NCBI GenBank assembly: GCA_951799445.1
Contig: OX637290.1
Coordinates: 64,501-128,500, forward strand
Length of the DNA stretch: 64,000 bases
DNA from: Pseudisothecium myosuroides
Lineage: Eukaryota; Streptophyta; Bryopsida; Hypnales; Lembophyllaceae
Direction: 5' to 3'
Shown: in pieces, positions 1,762 to 34,800 of the stretch
How the letters are laid out: each line of letters begins with the position of its first letter
Numbering within the stretch: position 1 is the stretch's first letter
Made by a program: the position numbers and the translations under genes
The notes under the pieces: generated by a model
Database searches by the model: none
What the model was told of the DNA's origin: nothing
What the model saw: only the letters and a program-made list of their open reading frames with translations

Positions 1762-2612
1762 TTAATCCCTAAAGGACCAACATGCATTTTTGGACAACAT
1801 AGAAATTTTGGGCAAGTACGAGTGATTAGAAATTTGCTTATTTTGGATAGAAGGTGGGGACAAGGAATATTTTTCATACACACCAAATTTCATGACATTT
1901 GAAAATGCGAGTCAGAAGTTATGGCCTGATATGTTGTTTGTTTCTCAATTCGGGCAGTTTGGACAGATCAGAAAAAAAAATAAAAAATTTGAAAAATAAA
2001 AAATTGAAATTGGTTTATTAGATTTTATGTATACGTGGAAAGCTTTGAATCATTTCATTTTGATCAATGAGTCAAACGTTATGAAGATTTTCAGTTTGCA
2101 GGCAATTATGGATTGTCTACTCTAAAATAAACTTTGAAGTTGTTTATTTCACTCAATTTTCAATATTTTTCAAAAAAAATAAAAATTGTAGTATGTACAT
2201 TGTGTATTACAACATGGCAACCATTGAAATTGACATTTTTTAATTCCATAATTAACTTCTTAACAATTTAATGTTTTGAACCATTCTCTATTTTTTAGTA
2301 CTAACTATTTTTTTCCTATATGTTATACAATTCCAAATAATCTGAAAATTTTCAAGCATATAGCCACACAGCTGCCCGGTTTTCCGCAAGGCCAAAAAAA
2401 GGACTTTTGCTAATTCAAACGCTAATTTTTTCTAATCTATACGATGGAAATTTTTGAATTTTCTTTCATGTATTCTCAAACCAAAGTACTACAACATCCT
2501 ATGGTCATATATGTTTAGAAAAGATATTTTTGAAGAATTTGGAACTTGTACTAGAAATGGCAGTTTTGGAGCATTTTTGGTGAAAACATAGTTAAAAAAC
2601 TTTAGGGATTAA
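1762..2612 (-). mobile_element. TTAA-flanked MITE, piggyBac-like ends
   Basis: Left end TTAATCCCTAAAGGACC, right end 'ctttagggattaa'. Internal blocks ('agaaatggcagttttggag') are inverted relative to the copy at 5010-5937, so the element lies in the opposite orientation. About 850 bases, noncoding. It sits about 170 bases downstream of the oxygenase stop codon. Confidence 0.7.
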
Positions 2613-2782
2613 GATGTGTCAATTCAGACTTTTTTGTCAACTTGTTATTGATTGGTACATTCTTTCTCAATTTAGATACAATAAGTCAATTTAGACTTGT
2701 TAATTAAAAAAATCCAGTCAAAATATTGCAAATCAAAGATGTACTCAAAGATATACTCAAAGATGTTGCAAATGCAACTAAA

Positions 2783-5700
2783 TCATACCCGAGTACATGC
2801 TTGGTAGATGCGATTGTTATCCAACCAATGGATAACTCTAGTCAAATCCTTTTCCTTTAGTTCAACGCCTTCCTTGAATTTTTCTACATTGCTAATAATA
2901 TTTTGCCACCACTCAAGTAGATTGGCATGCAGACAAAGAGCTACACCAAGTTGGCCAACCTCTCCTGTAGTCCTCGTACAATGATGAATTTCGCCAGCTT
3001 TGATAAGCATAACGTCCCCAACCTGTGGCTCAAAAAAATAGCCCAACTCTGGAAGATAAAATCGAACGCCATTGCCATTTTGCAAAGTACCTGTACAATA
3101 TTCAAACAAACATTTTTAGAAATTTATATATTATATAAAACCAAAATTGCTTCAATCTCAAAGTCACAAATCATTTGATAGTAAGAACAAAACATTAGAA
3201 TTGGGAACACTCAAAGCTTAGAAAATCATAGAATTGTGGAAGTGAAATGAAGTGTGAAGCCAAGAAAACTTAAACCTTCATAATATCACTGTACCTCTGT
3301 AATATCACAAATTTACACTGTGTGATATTACAGAGGCGCAGCGCCCGTTAAAACTTTATAATATCACACAGTGTAAAAAGGTGATATTATAGAGGGATCG
3401 GGACTCTGTAATATCACACAGTGTAAAAATGTGACATTACAGAGGACCTTGTGATTTTAGTAGTATGATGAATGCATTCAATTAAAAGACAATTAAATAA
3501 AAATAAGCATGGGAAATTAAAACTTACCACTCTCACCAAGCCAAAGAAAAAACCCATAAGAAAAATCATTTTTGTCGCAATGAGCTTTCACTTTGTAGTC
3601 CTTTGTCATAGCAAGACAAGAAAATGGAGAATCTCCTATACGGCTGTCACCCGACTGCATATTCTCCTTGGCCCGAGCATTTTCCAAATGCTCAAAGATA
3701 GAAGGAAAATTCTTTTTTAACCCTTTTGCCACGATTGTCGCAAAAGCCTCCGATCGGATATAACACTCTGGATTTGAATGTTTGTACCTGCATAGAGTTC
3801 AATTCATTAGAAAAATGTATTTTACCCCTAAAGGACCAAGGCCTTATTTCTGCCCAAAAAACACTCAAAACTGCCATATCTATAACAAAGAGTAAAAAAC
3901 TGCCCGAAAAACTGCCCGAAACTGCCCGAAACTGCCCCAAAACTGCCCGAAAACTGCCCGAAAACTGCCCCAAACAGCCCGAAACTGCCCAAAACTGCCC
4001 GAAAACTGCCCGAAACTGCTCGAAAACTGCCCGAGAATTGCCCGAAAAACAAGAATGTCCATAACTTTCTCATTAAAAATTTAAATGAAATGAATCAAAA
4101 CTTTCTAGATAGACAAAAATATAATCTATGAGAAAAAAATATTAAAAAAGAAAATTCAAATTTTTCTCCATTTTTTTTTGTTGCCCTGGCTGCCCCCTGT
4201 CCCCTCGTTTGAGCTTATTTGGTCATTACTTTTGTTCCAGGGCACCAATTGTGAAAAAAATTATATTCCCACAAAGCTTATCAATTTTTCTATCTCCCCA
4301 AATTTTTAAAAAAAAAATCACAACCAAAATTTCAGCCCATAGGTACCTATCCGAAAACGCATTTGTCCCCCAAAGGCACAATGGTTTTTTAGGGGTTAAA
4401 TAAGATAAAATAAAATAATTTATAAATTATAAAAATATATATAAAAAACACCTCATAAACAAAAGAAACACTTACCAAGCTAGTTTTCCGTATTTGTAAC
4501 GGACGCCAAAAGTGACCATTCGACTTCCCTCTTTTAGCGTTCCCCTCTTCGTAAGTCTCGCAGTCCTCTCCAGCCATTTCGCCTCCTTTGCCAAAAATGA
4601 GAGTTCCTCTGGAGTAAAAATGCCATTCACAAGATGAACAAGCTCTCCAAAAGGGTCACGAATAGATGCCGGAGAATAAATCTGTTGATGATCTTCATCT
4701 TCTGGAATGTAAGTCTTCCAAAACTCCTCGGTTCGTGTAATCTTCGTGACCTCGTATAGTGTAGCATGTGTAGGGCCTACATATATCGAAGTCGCAGGAA
4801 GGGCACGATCTTCAATGGTAACAACATGCTTGGCAATATGATTTTGCAGATGCTCTGTCTTAAGCGGCAAATCACAGTTATATGTAAAACAACGAATTTT
4901 TTTCTTCGTTTCGTCCTTCCAATCTGTTGCAAGGAAAAAAATATTGAGTTAAAGACAATCAAAATAATATTTTGTATTCATAGAAAGTATATTCCTATAT
5001 ATAAAAAATTTAACCCCTAAAAGACCAAGAACTTTTTTTTGCCAAAAAATAGTCAAAACAACCATATCTATAGCAAAGAATAAAAAAAATTGAAAATTAT
5101 TTTTTTTCACATCTAATCGTAGGATCTTACACCTAACTAGTATGAGAGTGTATGAAAAAAAATTCAGAATTTTTGACCGCATAGATTGTAAGATATTTGC
5201 ATTTAAGGTGAAAAAACACATTTTTCAGCACACTGCGGGATGAAATTTTTTTACTTTGGACATTTTTAACTTAAAATTTTTGCTCTACAACAATTTGAGC
5301 TTTAAATTTTTATAGTGGAGAATTGAGTTGAGAGTCTAGAAAAAAAGTTCAAAAAAACTTAATTATCATTCTTAAAAAAATGGTTAACTAGAAGTAGGTA
5401 CAAAATAGAAGGAAAATCTAAAATATTAATATATTTTAAATGGAATCAAAATGCACTAATCTCAATGGTGAAATTCTTTTGGCATATAAATTAGACCATA
5501 TAAAAAAATTGAAAGATTGAGAAAATTGCATTCAAAAATGAATTCTACAAGTTATTTTTTTTAAGAAGATGCTTTAATAGCCCGAAAAACAAGAATGCCC
5601 ATAACTTTCTCATAAGAAATCCAAATAAAATGAATCAAAGCTTTCTAAATAGACAAAAATATAATCTTTGAGAAAAAAATATATAAAAAAAAATATTCAA

Positions 5701-6270
5701 ATTTTTGTCTATTGTTTTTTTGCTGCCCAAGCTGCCCACCGTCCCTTGTTTTCAACTTATTTGGTCATAATTTTTTTTCGCGGCCACTAATTGCAAAAAA
5801 ATTATATTCCCACAAAGCTTATTAGTTTTTCTATTTTTGTAAAAATTTTCAAAAAATCACAACAAAATTTCAGCCAGTAGGTACATGCCCAAAAAAGCAT
5901 TTCTCCCACAAAAGGACAACGGTCCTTTAGGGGTTAAATAAAGATAATAATTTCTTTTGCAATTTAAATGCACCTCCCAAAAAAACTTCATCAATGCTAC
6001 AAGTGTTTAGTCATTTTAATAATAATAAAAATCATTAAACTAAATTAATAAAACACTATAAGTTCAAAGAATTAAGTTAAAAATATACTTACCAACATTG
6101 GAGCGCCGCAAAACTGGAATAATGTCATGGATGCTTGCCATGCGCACATGAGTCTTCCCTCTACAATGTTCGGGTACATCAACCATGTACTCATTGCAAC
6201 ATGTGCAATGGTGCCGGATTACTTTCTGCTTAGGGTGTGCCTTTGGTGTAGGAAAAACGTAGCCATCCAT
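2783..6270 (-). CDS. Intact zinc-finger plus TET/JBP-like 2OG-Fe(II)-type oxygenase, 4 coding exons
   Basis: Coding exons (minus strand): 6270-6093, 4923-4476, 3787-3528, 3090-2783. Every junction is GT-AG (donors GTAAGT/GTAAGTG) with phases 1, 2, 1 preserved, giving 397 residues. The ATG lies 17 bases into an exon that opens at 6287. Residues 22-41 form C-x2-C-x9-H-x5-H like U1/matrin fingers. Residues 71-92 form a second C2H2-like finger (C71, C76, H88, H92). Residues 160-209 ('GIFTPEEL', 'TFGVRYKYG') resemble the start of 2OG-oxygenase domains. H278-x-D280-x2-D283 and H331/H332 in 'GDVMLIKAGEIHHCT' are the likely iron ligands. 'LPELGYFFEPQVGD' is the usual strand before the distal His. Where most members have the 2OG-binding Arg, about ten residues after the His, there is Gln342. 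Oxidation of methylated DNA is inferred from the family only; an unrelated 2OG oxygenase subfamily is possible. No transposase gene is adjacent. Confidence 0.8.
3294..3445. mobile_element. Cluster of three hairpins, pogo/Lemi-like MITE remnant (intron 4)
   Basis: Three consecutive ~42-base hairpins at 3294-3336, 3354-3395 and 3404-3445. Each has arms of the CCTCTGTAATATCAC / GTGATATTACAGAGG type and a 'cagtgta' loop side. The 'CCTCTRTAATATC' ends and the 'agagggatcggga' interior recall plant pogo-like (Emigrant/Lemi) MITEs. That assignment is inference. It lies wholly within the intron 3527-3091 of the oxygenase gene. Confidence 0.55.
3822..4398 (+). mobile_element. TTAA-family MITE in intron 3, internally rearranged
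   Basis: The left end 'tttacccctaaaggacc' is slightly degenerate; the right end is 'ttttttaggggttaa'. The length of 577 bases against about 930 for sister copies reflects loss of the middle third, replaced by the minisatellite at 3893-4050. It fills most of the 688-base intron 4475-3788 of the minus-strand gene, in antisense orientation. Confidence 0.75.
3893..4050. repeat. Minisatellite, (CTGCCCGAAAA)n
   Basis: About 14 imperfect units of 10-12 bases. Sister elements have one such unit ('cccgaaaaacaag') at this place, so the array is a local expansion. Frames through it are open but encode only simple repeats such as 'NCPKTARKLPE' and are not genes. Confidence 0.9.
5010..5937 (+). mobile_element. 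TTAA-family MITE in intron 2
   Basis: Starts TTAACCCCTAAAAGACC and ends GGTCCTTTAGGGGTTAA; 928 bases with no coding capacity. Shared internal blocks ('aggatcttacacctaa', 'cataactttctcata') align it with the other copies. It fills most of the 1169-base intron 6092-4924. Confidence 0.8.
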
Positions 6271-6303
6271 ATTTAGGATCCTAAATCCTGCAAATTTCAA
6301 CAT

Positions 6304-7531
6304 TCAAATATTAAAAAATTTGATTTACCAAAAATTCAAAAATAATTTTAACATATAAATAATACTATGACATTCCAAAACTTTGACTTTTAAAAATCAA
6401 TGTAATAATAAGATAAACTTTCAATCGTGGTTTACAAGCCAATTTCCATCACAAAACATTAAAAAATGTAATGTAAATTACAAAAAATAAAAAAACTAAT
6501 TGATTTTAATATTCTCTACATCCAAATAAATTTTGAAACAATAAAATTTAAAGATTCATATAAAATTAAAATAAAACCTACTTGACATTTTTTCATACTA
6601 TTTTTGTTTTCATTTATCAAACATTGATCTTAGAACCATCTTCATTGTTTAAAAACTACAAGCAATAGTAGTGATGTCTTTGTTGATGTGGATGACACCA
6701 AAAAAAAAATTTTGAGATTTTCTTTGGTAGGTAAGGTAGAACTGCCTATCACCACCTTGATTTGTAATTTGATTATGTTGGGGCCAATTTCAAGAGGGGC
6801 ATATATTTTTCATAGGTGTGTGCATGTTTTAGGAATCAAATCCAAGTGGAATTATAATTTTTTTTGATTAAAATTGTAATTTCTATGAATTTTTGAAGTA
6901 TTCAGCTCTAAAATTACAAAATTGCCAACAAACTAGAGTCATAAACTTCTCATCAACCACCCATAACCACCAAGTCAAGTACTAAAGATTCACTATTAGT
7001 AGAGTGACATATTATCCCTTGCTGTTATAGAAGTTCTAATTCTGTCAATAGATTTTTTGATTTTGTCATAAAAGAAATGGATTTAGATGTTTTTTGGATG
7101 GAGTTGAATTCAAACTAGGGTGGAATTCGGCCCAAAGTGGGGCTCACAAAATTGGGATGGTCTACAAATGTAATTGAAAAACCGAGGGTAATGAATAGTT
7201 CTATCTTATATACTTTCCTATTAGTCAAATAAACCATCTAAAATCCAGCTTTAGATCATTAAATTTGGAAAATTTGAATATAGAAAAATCCAAAATCTAA
7301 TATTGTAACATGTAAACAAAAATAATTTTTAGATAGAAAATAATTTTTTTATTAATTTAAAGAAAATAGGGTAGTGGTTACCAATTACCATAAAGCTAAA
7401 CATCTCCAATAAAAACTTGAAATTCTTATCAATACTCATTTAAAAGTTATACCAGAAAAAAACAAAGTTGATTTAAAAGTAATTGGGTTTTTAAACAAAC
7501 TTTCTTGCAATCACATTTTGGAGATATTTGT
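6304..7531. other. AT-rich intronic DNA
   Basis: This forms part of the probable leader intron of the oxygenase gene (9451-6288). Very AT-rich; no exon, element end or repeat was recognised. Confidence 0.5.
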
Positions 7532-8473
7532 TTAACCCTTTAAGGACCGAGGCCTTTTTTCTACCAAAAAACATTGAAAACTGCCATTTCTATAGCAAGG
7601 AGTAAAAAAATTTGAAAAATGTTTTTTTTGCATATTTTACCGTAAGATCTTACACCTAATTAGTATGAGAATGTGTAGAAAAAATTTCAGAATTTTTAAC
7701 CGCTGAGATTGCAAGATATCTACATTTAAAGTGAAAAAAACAATTATTTCAGCATATTCCGGGAATAGATTTTTTTACTTTAAACATTTTTAACTCCAAA
7801 TTTTTGCACTACAGAGTTTTGAGCTTTAAATCTTTATAGTGGAAAATTGAGTTGAGAGTCTACGGAAAAAAATAATATTCAAAAAAACTTAATTATCATT
7901 CCTAAAAAATTTATTAAGTAGAAGTAGGTACAAGATACAAGGAAAATCTAAAATATTCATATATTCTTGATGGAATTAAAATACACTAATCCCAATGGTC
8001 AGATTTTTCTAGCAAGTAAACTAAACCATAAGAATTTTTGTTTTTGAAAAATTGCAAAAAGAGCATTCATAAATGAATTCTACAAGTTATTTTTTTCAAG
8101 AAGATGCTCTAACTGCCCCAAAAAACAAGTATGTCCATAACTTTCTCATAACAAATCCAAATGAAATGAATCAAAGCTTTCCAAATAGACATAAATATAA
8201 TCTACGAAAAAAATATATTAAACAAAAAATAACAAATCTTTGCTAAATTTTTTTTGGTGCCCAAATTGCCCAGTTACAAAAAAAAGTAACATATTTGGCC
8301 ATAACTTTTGACTACTATTTTTAAATGTGCTAAAATTTAGTGCATATGAAAGATACTCCTTGTGCCCACCTTTTATTAAGATTTTAGCTTAAAATATAGA
8401 AATCTCTAGTTACACATACTTGGCCAAAATTTCTATACAACCAAAAAATGCATGCCGGTCTTCTAGGGGTTAA
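7532..8473 (+). mobile_element. TTAA-family MITE in the leader intron
   Basis: TTAACCCTTTAAGGACC at the left and 'ggtcttctaggggttaa' at the right, 942 bases. Its right quarter is also present at 33845-34104, because the boundary of segment B falls inside this element. Confidence 0.8.
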
Positions 8474-8535
8474 ATATTAATTTGATAATTAGTTCTTTAA
8501 ATTTCAAAACTCATACCCTAAAAATTAACCTATCA

Positions 8536-9169
8536 TTTTAAAATTAAAATGTTAAATTATTCAATTAACTTCCTTTTTTAATAATCATTGGAAGAAGCCA
8601 TGAACCCAAAAGCGCAAATTAACCACGTGGCATCCAATAGAGGTTTAATAAATAAACACCCTACCTTTATCCAGTAGAAAATGGCTTTAACATCCAACCC
8701 TGGTTTAATAAATTAAAGTCAGGGCCTTTATTTAAAGCCAATGCGGAGGCATTCTCCAACAATTCTTTTAAAATTATAAAGTCTTTTACATTTACTTCAA
8801 ATTGTCAAGCTTTTAAAGTTTTAAATATATAGTTTGGAATACAACAACTAGCATTCAAAATTAAAATGTTAAATTATTCAATTAACTTTCTTTTTTAACA
8901 ATCATTGGAAGAAGCCATGAACCCAAAAGCGCAAATTAACCACGTGGCATCCAATAGAGGTTTAATAAATAAACACCCTACCTTTATCCAGTAGAAAATG
9001 GCTTTAACATCCAACCCTGGTTTAATAAATTAAAGTCAGGGCCTTTATTTAAAGCCAATGCGGAGGCATTCTCCAACAATTCTTTTAAAATTATAAAGTC
9101 TTTTACATTTACTTCAAATTGTCAAGCTTTTAAAGTTTTAAATATATAGTTTGGAATACAACAACTAGC
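8536..9169. repeat. Tandem duplication, two 317-base units
   Basis: Units 8536-8852 and 8853-9169 share 'gaagaagccatgaaccc', 'ccacgtggcatcc' and 'ggcattctccaac' at a constant spacing of 317. The same tandem pair is at 34167-34800, so the tandem event came before duplication of segment B. Noncoding. Confidence 0.95.
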
Positions 9170-32440: not shown

Positions 32441-32556
32441 GAGGTTCCATAACTACTGGCGAACAAAAACTCCTCATTTGCAGTTCTCACTTATTTCGGG
32501 AATGTTTGTGCTTGTTTGTTGTTGAGTTGAATGCTGTTGGATAGACTATTGTTAAT

Positions 32557-33123
32557 ATGGCATGCCTACCTAAAACCAAGTCTCAACTACGTAATTATCT
32601 GAAAGGGGTTGATAGTGAAGTAGAGCGGACAAAGGGGAAGCTCCCTTTCTTTGGTGGAGATGACGTGAGGGCTCTGTTAGATAAAGCCAATGGTGAGGAG
32701 TTACATTGGACAAAGGCAACGAATAGGGAATTCCGGAAAATGGAATTATACTCTGGCGTTGCGTTTCTGGCAGAGATGGCTGAAAATGGTTACCACTTTA
32801 AGATTTGCAAACCTTTTCAAAATGAGTGGGATGACTGGCCTGAGGAGGACAATGTGTACTACTCCGACCAAGAAGTTAACTACCCATCAAATGTGGATTC
32901 AGGGAGAGATTTGAGTTTGGGCTTTGAGAACCAGCTTGAGCAAGTGGGACAAGGTGGATTGCAGGAGGATGAGATCTAGAGCTCAAATATGGGCTCCCTC
33001 ATAGATGATGACACCTCTTCTGATTCAGCACCTCAATTCATGTCCGGCATGGCATCCTTTTTCCAATTCAGCACAGACTTCCAATTCATCATAGACGGCG
33101 AAGCTGATTATAATGGACCATAG
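32557..33123 (+). CDS. Unrecognised coding candidate, 140 residues (188 codons with one internal TAG)
   Basis: The ATG at 32557 is preceded in frame by TAG. The frame runs 140 codons to TAG at 32977-32979 and continues, in the same frame, to TAG at 33121. Composition is protein-like and GC is higher than in the flanks. Residues 48-85 include 'ELHWTKATNREFRKMEL' and 'FKICKPFQNEWDDWPEED'. The C-terminal part is acidic and Ser/Asp-rich, and after the internal TAG this character continues ('GSLIDDDTSSDSAPQF'). No family is recognised. CAG-to-TAG would explain the internal stop, so it may be a recent pseudogene, a shortened gene, or an exon of a larger one: an acceptor-like 'catttgcag' precedes it at about 32484. 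Confidence 0.5.
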
Positions 33124-34166: not shown

Positions 34167-34800
34167 TTTTAAAATAATAATGTTAAATTATTCAATTAAC
34201 TTCCTTTTTTAACAATCATTGGAAGAAGCCATGAACCCAAAAGCGCAAATTAACCACGTGGCATCCAATAGAGGTTTAATAAATAAACACCCTACCTTTA
34301 TCTAGTAGAAAATGGCTTTAACATCCAACCCTGGTTTAATAAATTAAAGTCAGGGCCTTTATTTAAAGCCAATGCGGAGGCATTCTCCAACAATTCTTTT
34401 AAAATTATAAAGTCTTTTACATTTACTTCAAATTGTCAAGCTTTTAAAGTTTTAAATATATAGTTTGGAATACAACAACTAGCATTCAAAATTAAAATGT
34501 TAAATTATTCAATTAACTTTCTTTTTTAACAATCATTGGAAGAAGCCATGAACCCAAAAGCGCAAATTAACCACGTGGCATCCAATAGAGGTTTAATAAA
34601 TAAACACCCTACCTTTATCCAGTAGAAAATGGCTTTAACATCCAACCCTGGTTTAATAAATTAAAGTCAGGGCCTTTATTTAAAGCCAATGCGGAGGCAT
34701 TCTCCAACAATTCTTTTAAAATTATAAAGTCTTTTACATTTACTTCAAATTGTCAAGCTTTTAAAGTTTTAAATATATAGTTTGGAATACAACAACTAGC
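34167..34800. repeat. 317-base tandem duplication, second occurrence
   Basis: Same two units as at 8536-9169, with the same 317-base spacing. Confidence 0.95.

Follow-up and report, generated by a model that had tools for sequence, protein, structure and literature searches.

Zinc-finger proteins with a TET/JBP oxygenase core resembling algal CMD1, predicted from a multi-copy gene family of the land plant Pseudisothecium myosuroides

Results

A zinc-finger protein of the TET/JBP superfamily

The gene described here lies on the minus strand of contig C4 of Pseudisothecium myosuroides (Bryopsida), in the 64-kb stretch C4:64501-128500, which as a whole is called the window; the assembly has 222 contigs and 388 Mb. 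The gene encodes a 397-residue protein in which a U1-type and a C2H2-type zinc finger precede an oxygenase core that almost certainly belongs to the TET/JBP superfamily, and it is one of many related genes in this genome. The residues that these genes keep suggest, at about even chances in our judgement, a CMD1-like DNA enzyme of a land plant, multi-copy, equipped with both types of finger and using a co-substrate other than 2-oxoglutarate (2OG).

Tet_JBP (PF12851) was the sole sensible Pfam match of the window protein (E=1.2e-8; 34.8 bits, 0.1 under the curated cut-off of 34.9). It matched the representatives of all three gene families described below at E<=1, the window protein giving the best value, and one representative also matched PF20515, 'Tet-like 2OG-Fe(II) oxygenase' (0.0044). 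The best PDB sequence was algal CMD1 (Chlamydomonas), with E=0.0082 for the whole protein and 0.001 for the core. A profile made from the window protein and two diverged relatives of the same genome, one member per family, again placed CMD1 first (1.3e-6). It further matched WBP4/FBP21 (0.0044), in agreement with the U1-like first finger named by an earlier reading of the letters (the sequence-only reading), and PRDM9 (0.014, over the second finger); weak matches were to BUD20 (0.27-0.36), ZNF346 (0.34), ZNF593 (0.7-0.8), U1-C (1) and two NS1 chains (1.7-2.2). Beside CMD1, no TET, AlkB or other oxygenase was among the 12 PDB sequences that this profile matched at E<=10, and no chain of animal TET, Naegleria TET1 or Coprinopsis CcTet appeared at that threshold in PDB searches with protein, core or profile. 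By sequence, no TET/JBP oxygenase other than CMD1 turned up among the solved structures, and the TET/JBP/CMD1-like core proposed earlier is borne out by these matches.

Phage proteins share the same core. The window protein matched PHROG 24024 (5.3e-11), and tblastn matched it (1e-6) to a protein of Stenotrophomonas phage DLP_6 that is itself Tet_JBP by Pfam. With the three-family profile, an 83-residue fragment of CMD1 scored 35.6 bits and the best phage protein 34.3, 7 of 10 phage proteins being reported; overall similarity by itself seems barely to separate CMD1 from the phage Tet_JBP proteins. The phage proteins differ from the window protein, however, in that Arg stands at the 2OG position of all 10 that were read by hand, Trp is absent from all of them 13 residues after the first metal-binding His, and no Pfam finger family was found in the two that were scanned. 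Phage records at E<=10 numbered 75; among the matches listed, the relatives were DLP_6 and Cr30 (three records, Cr30 twice), and 17 others, to head or capsid proteins (one unnamed), were rejected as chance-like. A search of viral contigs gave four stretches and no relative, a search of 5.8 billion proteins gave 1042 candidates and none at E<=1, and an NCBIfam scan gave nothing meaningful. Phage Tet_JBP genes (L005-L010) are annotated beside genes for ParB-like nucleases, methyltransferases or glycosyltransferases.

Structure of the window gene

The four coding exons (Table 1), 1194 nt in total, join in frame with a single stop, at the end, and each of the three introns has GT..AG borders and a GTAAG donor. 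This is the gene that the sequence-only reading had drawn, here recovered from the letters, and H278, D280, D283, H331, H332 and Q342 sit where it had placed them. GC content is 42.7% in the coding sequence and 29.3% in the introns. Because an AG acceptor stands immediately 5' of the first ATG, an additional exon upstream is possible. The gene is real, far beyond chance, given the Tet_JBP and phage matches and 15 copies with the same exon structure.

The description of the gene as intact holds for the reading frame but not for the second finger, which in the window copy is incomplete through the loss of one cysteine. Residue 74 (codon 4882-4880) is Tyr in this copy only and Cys in the other 14 of the 15 family-1 copies. 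By eye, the C-x2-C of this finger is also seen in families 2 and 3 and in the relatives L057, L058 and L061; MAFFT aligned C76 instead.

Table 1. Coordinates of the window gene and of the elements flanking it.
Feature	Positions in window	Strand	Content
Coding exon 1	6093..6270	-	U1-like finger C22, C25, H35, H41; profile match to U1-type fingers
Coding exon 2	4476..4923	-	Second finger C71-x2-74, H88, H92; start of oxygenase domain, including R201
Coding exon 3	3528..3787	-	H278 (3582-3580), D280 (3576-3574), D283 (3567-3565), W291 (3543-3541)
Coding exon 4, with stop	2783..3090	-	H332 (2983-2981), HCTR motif, Q342 (2953-2951), H350
Intron 1	4924..6092	-	TTAA-flanked repeated element at about 5010-5937
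Intron 2	3788..4475	-	Related element at about 3821-4408; left end TTTACCCCTAAAGG, right end TAGGGGTTAA (right end by eye)
Intron 3	3091..3527	-	Inverted-repeat insert at about 3290-3445 (by eye)
Flanking non-autonomous element, outside gene	1762..2613		TTAA/CCCTAAAGG-type ends; right end by eye; repeats
Flanking non-autonomous element of the same kind, 5' side of gene	7531..8474		Ends by eye; repeats

The active site and the co-substrate pocket

Residues of the window protein were paired with those of CMD1 through the HMMER alignment, anchored by hand at H278=H345; the roles and numbering of CMD1 residues follow PMC7854593. D280 and H332 pair with the iron ligands D347 and H397, and D283 pairs with D350, which holds N4 of 5-methylcytosine (5mC). 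T270, W291 and T334 are the counterparts of the vitamin-C residues T337, W358 and T399; V275 and F306 correspond to V342 and F371, which line the vitamin-C site, the V275 position being Cys in families 2 and 3. In the HMMER alignments no gap falls between H278 and W291 (at H+13), the partner of W358. The three family representatives agree at H278, D280, D283, W291, T270, F306, H332, T334, R335 and R201. Among seven single relatives, D280 is Asn in L011 and D283 is Asn in L058; most of the single relatives contain stops and look like pseudogenes.

The spacing like that of H345, D347, D350 and H397 in CMD1, put forward in the sequence-only reading, is reproduced by the alignment. The HxDxxD motif that it had called the metal motif is present, H278 and D280 being the predicted metal-binding residues and D283 aligning with the base contact D350. 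For the distal ligand, left between residues 331 and 332, H332 is most likely, because position 331 is W, L, Q, R, C or N in relatives and position 332 stays His; H331 was rejected as a ligand.

In CMD1, W358 fills the place of the 2OG arginine side chain, with a possible clash with the 2OG C5 carboxylate; R410 is retained and points away from the pocket; and changing R244, H249, T337, W358 or T399 to Ala abolishes activity (PMC7854593). With residue numbers from the same source, R1896/Y1902/H1904 in TET2, R289/F295/H297 in NgTET1 and R410/F416/R418 in CMD1 follow a +0/+6/+8 pattern. By spacing, these positions are Q342/C348/H350 in the window protein, which shares with animal TET, Naegleria TET1 and Coprinopsis CcTet the metal motif and has H350 at the spacing of NgTET1 H297 and TET2 H1904. 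The arginine for the 2OG C5 carboxylate is not kept: Gln occupies position 342 in families 1 and 3, as in L011, L012, L057-L060 and L062, and Leu occupies it in family 2. The placement of Gln342 at this position, by spacing, therefore agrees with the earlier reading. Of the step from Gln342 to an altered co-substrate, the loss of Arg stands, but by itself it says little for ascorbate, because CMD1 keeps R410 and the loss is then not what makes an ascorbate enzyme; W291 appears to be the stronger clue. Among the relatives read, Cys348 is peculiar to family 1: of the 9 that lie outside this family, 8 carry Tyr or Phe there and L012 carries Leu. CMD1 differs from family 1 in keeping Arg410, Ser414 and Phe416 where family 1 has Gln342, Ala346 and Cys348, and the sections of PMC7854593 consulted mention no zinc fingers for CMD1, in contrast to the fingers of the window protein.

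Three families of copies, two of them mostly near contig ends

With 104 of 268 candidates scored, a search of the genome with the window protein gave at least 137 exon-level matches at E<=10. Family 1, to which the window gene belongs, numbers at least 15 near-identical copies; each lies no farther than about 0.33 Mb from a contig end, and some stand in tandem at a spacing of 27.3 or 22.4 kb. The other 14 copies differ from the window copy at 5-9 of 1194 coding positions. The frame is complete in 14 of the 15, L048 having a stop at codon 220. Across the 15 copies the coding sequence has 17 variable sites and no gap among 1194 columns, and the introns have 46 variable sites and gaps in 87 of 2349 columns. 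Among the coding changes, 7 are silent, 9 alter an amino acid and 1 makes a stop (neutral expectation 77.5% changing, p=0.065), and coding and intron variability compare at p=0.23. This pattern is compatible with constraint and does not prove it.

Family 2 comprises about 23 matched places, 20 of them without a stop in the matched stretch, and at least 21 are less than 1 Mb from a contig end, a count that leaves two on C5 aside; one (L063) was read. Family 3 consists of six equal-scoring places, with L064 as the member read, and of C7:16.43M (L062), where the frame is apparently shifted. Identity to the window protein is 32% for the family-2 representative and 35% for that of family 3, yet both fingers and the catalytic residues recur in all three, as do intron positions, at splice sites chosen by us: intron 3 is common to all three, intron 1 is shared with family 2 and intron 2 with family 3. 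Long-term constraint on the gene family is likely because families so diverged keep these features. The earlier argument from intactness to selection is weak for copies as recent as those of family 1; the case for selection rests instead on the three diverged families and their conserved metal site.

The plant host of the window gene, proposed from the letters, is supported by 28 exon-level matches to NAC (PF02365), about 16 loci by grouping, with no match in any of 14 unspecified control genomes, and by plant-type repeats. NAC genes are typical of land plants and of the algae related to them, and a flowering plant commonly has around a hundred. By these marks the host is a land plant but probably not a flowering one, a bryophyte or lycophyte being likely. 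Five TTTAGGG units in a row occur 526 times forward and 779 times reverse in the genome, the places listed being in the first 765 bases of C1; at least that contig end is a telomere.

Plavaka transposase sequence beside family 3

C2:21.87M and C3:27.64M share a unit that contains the family-3 gene, measures at least 23,501 bp and aligns without a gap at 99.96% identity; the similarity carries on over another 4.6-kb alignment (99.6%, 18 gap positions), and no end was reached. In the left part of the unit, two of six scanned frames match Plavaka (PF18759) with 67.0 and 49.9 bits (cut-off 26.3; E=2.3e-18 and 3.6e-13). All seven full-length places found for this 9.5-kb left part coincide with the seven family-3 places (26 of 857 candidates scored). 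Other places in the genome match parts of the 9.5-kb stretch, mostly the first 4.6 kb with the transposase, and no TET match was listed there. The unit may be a single giant transposon, or else part of a larger block that spread recently. As an observation in its own right, Plavaka transposase sequence thus occurs in a land plant (L067-L068, C2:21.870-21.896M), in a very recent seven-copy unit.

The DNA around the window gene is of another kind. Between the window and the family-3 unit, DNA similarity is limited to seven short matches (51-444 bp), several of them in the small elements. A comparison of the window with Plavaka and the Pfam scan of 10 other open reading frames found no transposase around the window gene, and no pair of ends encloses it; degraded transposases of other types may be present. 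Family 1 probably spread with subtelomeric duplication, since the window is without Plavaka similarity and shares only these short matches with the family-3 unit.

Repeated elements and other features of the window

The transposon-like DNA seen earlier in the coding introns is there, as repeated elements in introns 1 and 2 and an inverted-repeat insert in intron 3. The ends of the elements in introns 1 and 2 read CCCTAAAGGACC or near it, and similar elements lie on both flanks of the gene; the left end of the intron-2 element starts with TTTA, and the other ends resemble TTAA-CCCTAAAGGACC. Judged by these ends, the elements in introns 1 and 2 appear piggyBac-like. Placing the gene inside one transposon bounded by the inverted arms 1762-2064 and 8155-8473 was considered and rejected, as the arms are the ends of two separate small elements (far ends by eye). 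Within the intron-2 element, positions 3897-4047 hold an array of about 14 copies of a 10-11-base unit (AAACTGCCCG).

Three pairs of stretches in the window are 94-99% identical (1-1337/27125-28499, 8209-10974/33841-36890 and 18953-20516/47594-49154). They keep the same order at a distance of about 25.6-28.6 kb, near the 27-kb tandem spacing of gene copies at other chromosome ends; no second copy of the gene was found in the window. A 317-bp unit stands in two tandem copies, 98-99% alike, at 8540-9169 and at 34171-34800. At 32545-32979 (+) there is a 144-residue open frame without a Pfam, NCBIfam or meaningful PHROG match. The Pfam scan of 10 other open reading frames of the window gave no match at E<=0.1, and Rfam and tRNA scans of the window found none.

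Discussion

We infer the substrate, the co-substrate and a role against silencing from the residues and the genomic setting described above. The zinc fingers would place the enzyme on DNA, where H278, D280 and H332 would hold Fe(II) and D283 a flipped 5mC. The base would then undergo oxidation or conjugation with the help of a co-substrate that is not 2OG; ascorbate, which CMD1 uses, is the most likely one, since the 2OG arginine is replaced and the counterpart of CMD1 Trp358 is kept. Ascorbate is the first candidate also because the pocket is partly CMD1-like and because ascorbate is abundant in plants. Were 5mC oxidised or capped in the DNA that bears the gene, silencing of that DNA would be countered; relief from methylation-based silencing is the likely benefit because a sister gene stands with Plavaka sequence and families 1 and 2 lie mostly near chromosome ends. 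These parts differ in strength. The enzyme family is probably active, a co-substrate other than 2OG has in our estimate slightly less than an even chance, and the anti-silencing role is offered tentatively and with some doubt. Taken together as CMD1-type land-plant enzymes that write a vitamin-C-derived mark (5-glycerylmethylcytosine or a new base) on methylated DNA, are targeted by fingers, travel on Plavaka-type mobile DNA and have multiplied at chromosome ends as a means against silencing, the whole is speculative and unlikely to hold in every part.

Several observations weigh against the CMD1-like reading. Family 1 has Cys348 where TETs and CMD1 stack the base with Phe or Tyr, and the CMD1 ascorbate contacts S414 and S335 are Ala (A346, A268) in family 1, position 268 being Ser in family 3. 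A counterpart of CMD1 H249 was not found in the window protein, and the pairing of R201 with R244 is by motif only. The HMMER alignments end near residue 340, Q342=R410 being set by hand spacing, and MAFFT with the phage proteins placed this segment otherwise. Among the seven single relatives, W291 is Trp in L011, L057, L059 and L060, falls on a stop in L012 and L058 and is unclear in L062, and T334 is Met in two of the seven (L057 and L058). Run on the whole genome, the Pfam profile gave just two loci, L011 and L012 (about 7e-4, below the cut-off); the window gene, whose domain is split by introns, was not listed. The family-1 copies are too recent to prove selection, and no similarity to Plavaka was found in the 64 kb around the window gene.

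These points leave room for other explanations. Because 2OG is the common co-substrate of the superfamily, the protein might be an ordinary 2OG-using TET/JBP enzyme, a 5mC or T oxidase that holds 2OG through R335 (HCTR) or R201; both arginines are identical in the three representatives, and the phage Tet_JBP proteins match the core nearly as well as CMD1 does. We regard this as unlikely, since Gln or Leu replaces the usual Arg in all relatives that were read, and W291 stands at the position of CMD1 W358, the occupant of the 2OG-arginine place and a potential clash with the C5 carboxylate (PMC7854593).

Family 1 could also be a decaying passenger of subtelomeric repeats that no longer works, as might be read from Cys348 in place of an aromatic residue, Tyr74 in the window copy, the stop at codon 220 in one copy, stops in several single relatives and a pattern of changes indistinguishable from neutral. 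Against decay stand the metal ligands, all intact, the whole frame of 14 of 15 copies and gap columns confined to the introns, and it too seems to us rather improbable. An RNA-modifying oxygenase is brought to mind by U1-type fingers, which often bind RNA, and by finger matches to splicing, ribosome-assembly and double-stranded-RNA-binding proteins (WBP4, BUD20, ZNF346, ZNF593 and U1-C), but these matches reflect the type of finger, and only that to WBP4 is more than weak. The oxygenase core matches an enzyme that acts on DNA, and the residue paired with D283 contacts 5mC; we hold an RNA substrate to be very improbable. The CMD1-like DNA enzyme remains the reading that we prefer.

Among open-access, top-ranked literature results we found no report of TET/JBP or CMD1 in land plants; early surveys by the Aravind group may mention TET/JBP proteins in non-flowering plants. 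In fungi, TET/JBP genes occur on eleven transposon lineages, Plavaka included, according to PMC12730594 (Kojima 2025). These TET+ transposons (PU, AG and PE types) resemble family 3 in combining a TET/JBP gene with transposase genes, but their hosts are fungi, whereas family 3 belongs to a land plant and to a unit of at least 23.5 kb.

The genome of this land plant holds dozens of related matches, whose representatives keep several key residues of the CMD1 pocket, and land plants may thus have a type of DNA-modifying enzyme not described in them. If the enzymes are active, they would provide an enzymatic route to oxidised or glycerylated 5mC in land plants, and TET genes linked to transposases would have hosts among land plants as well as fungi.

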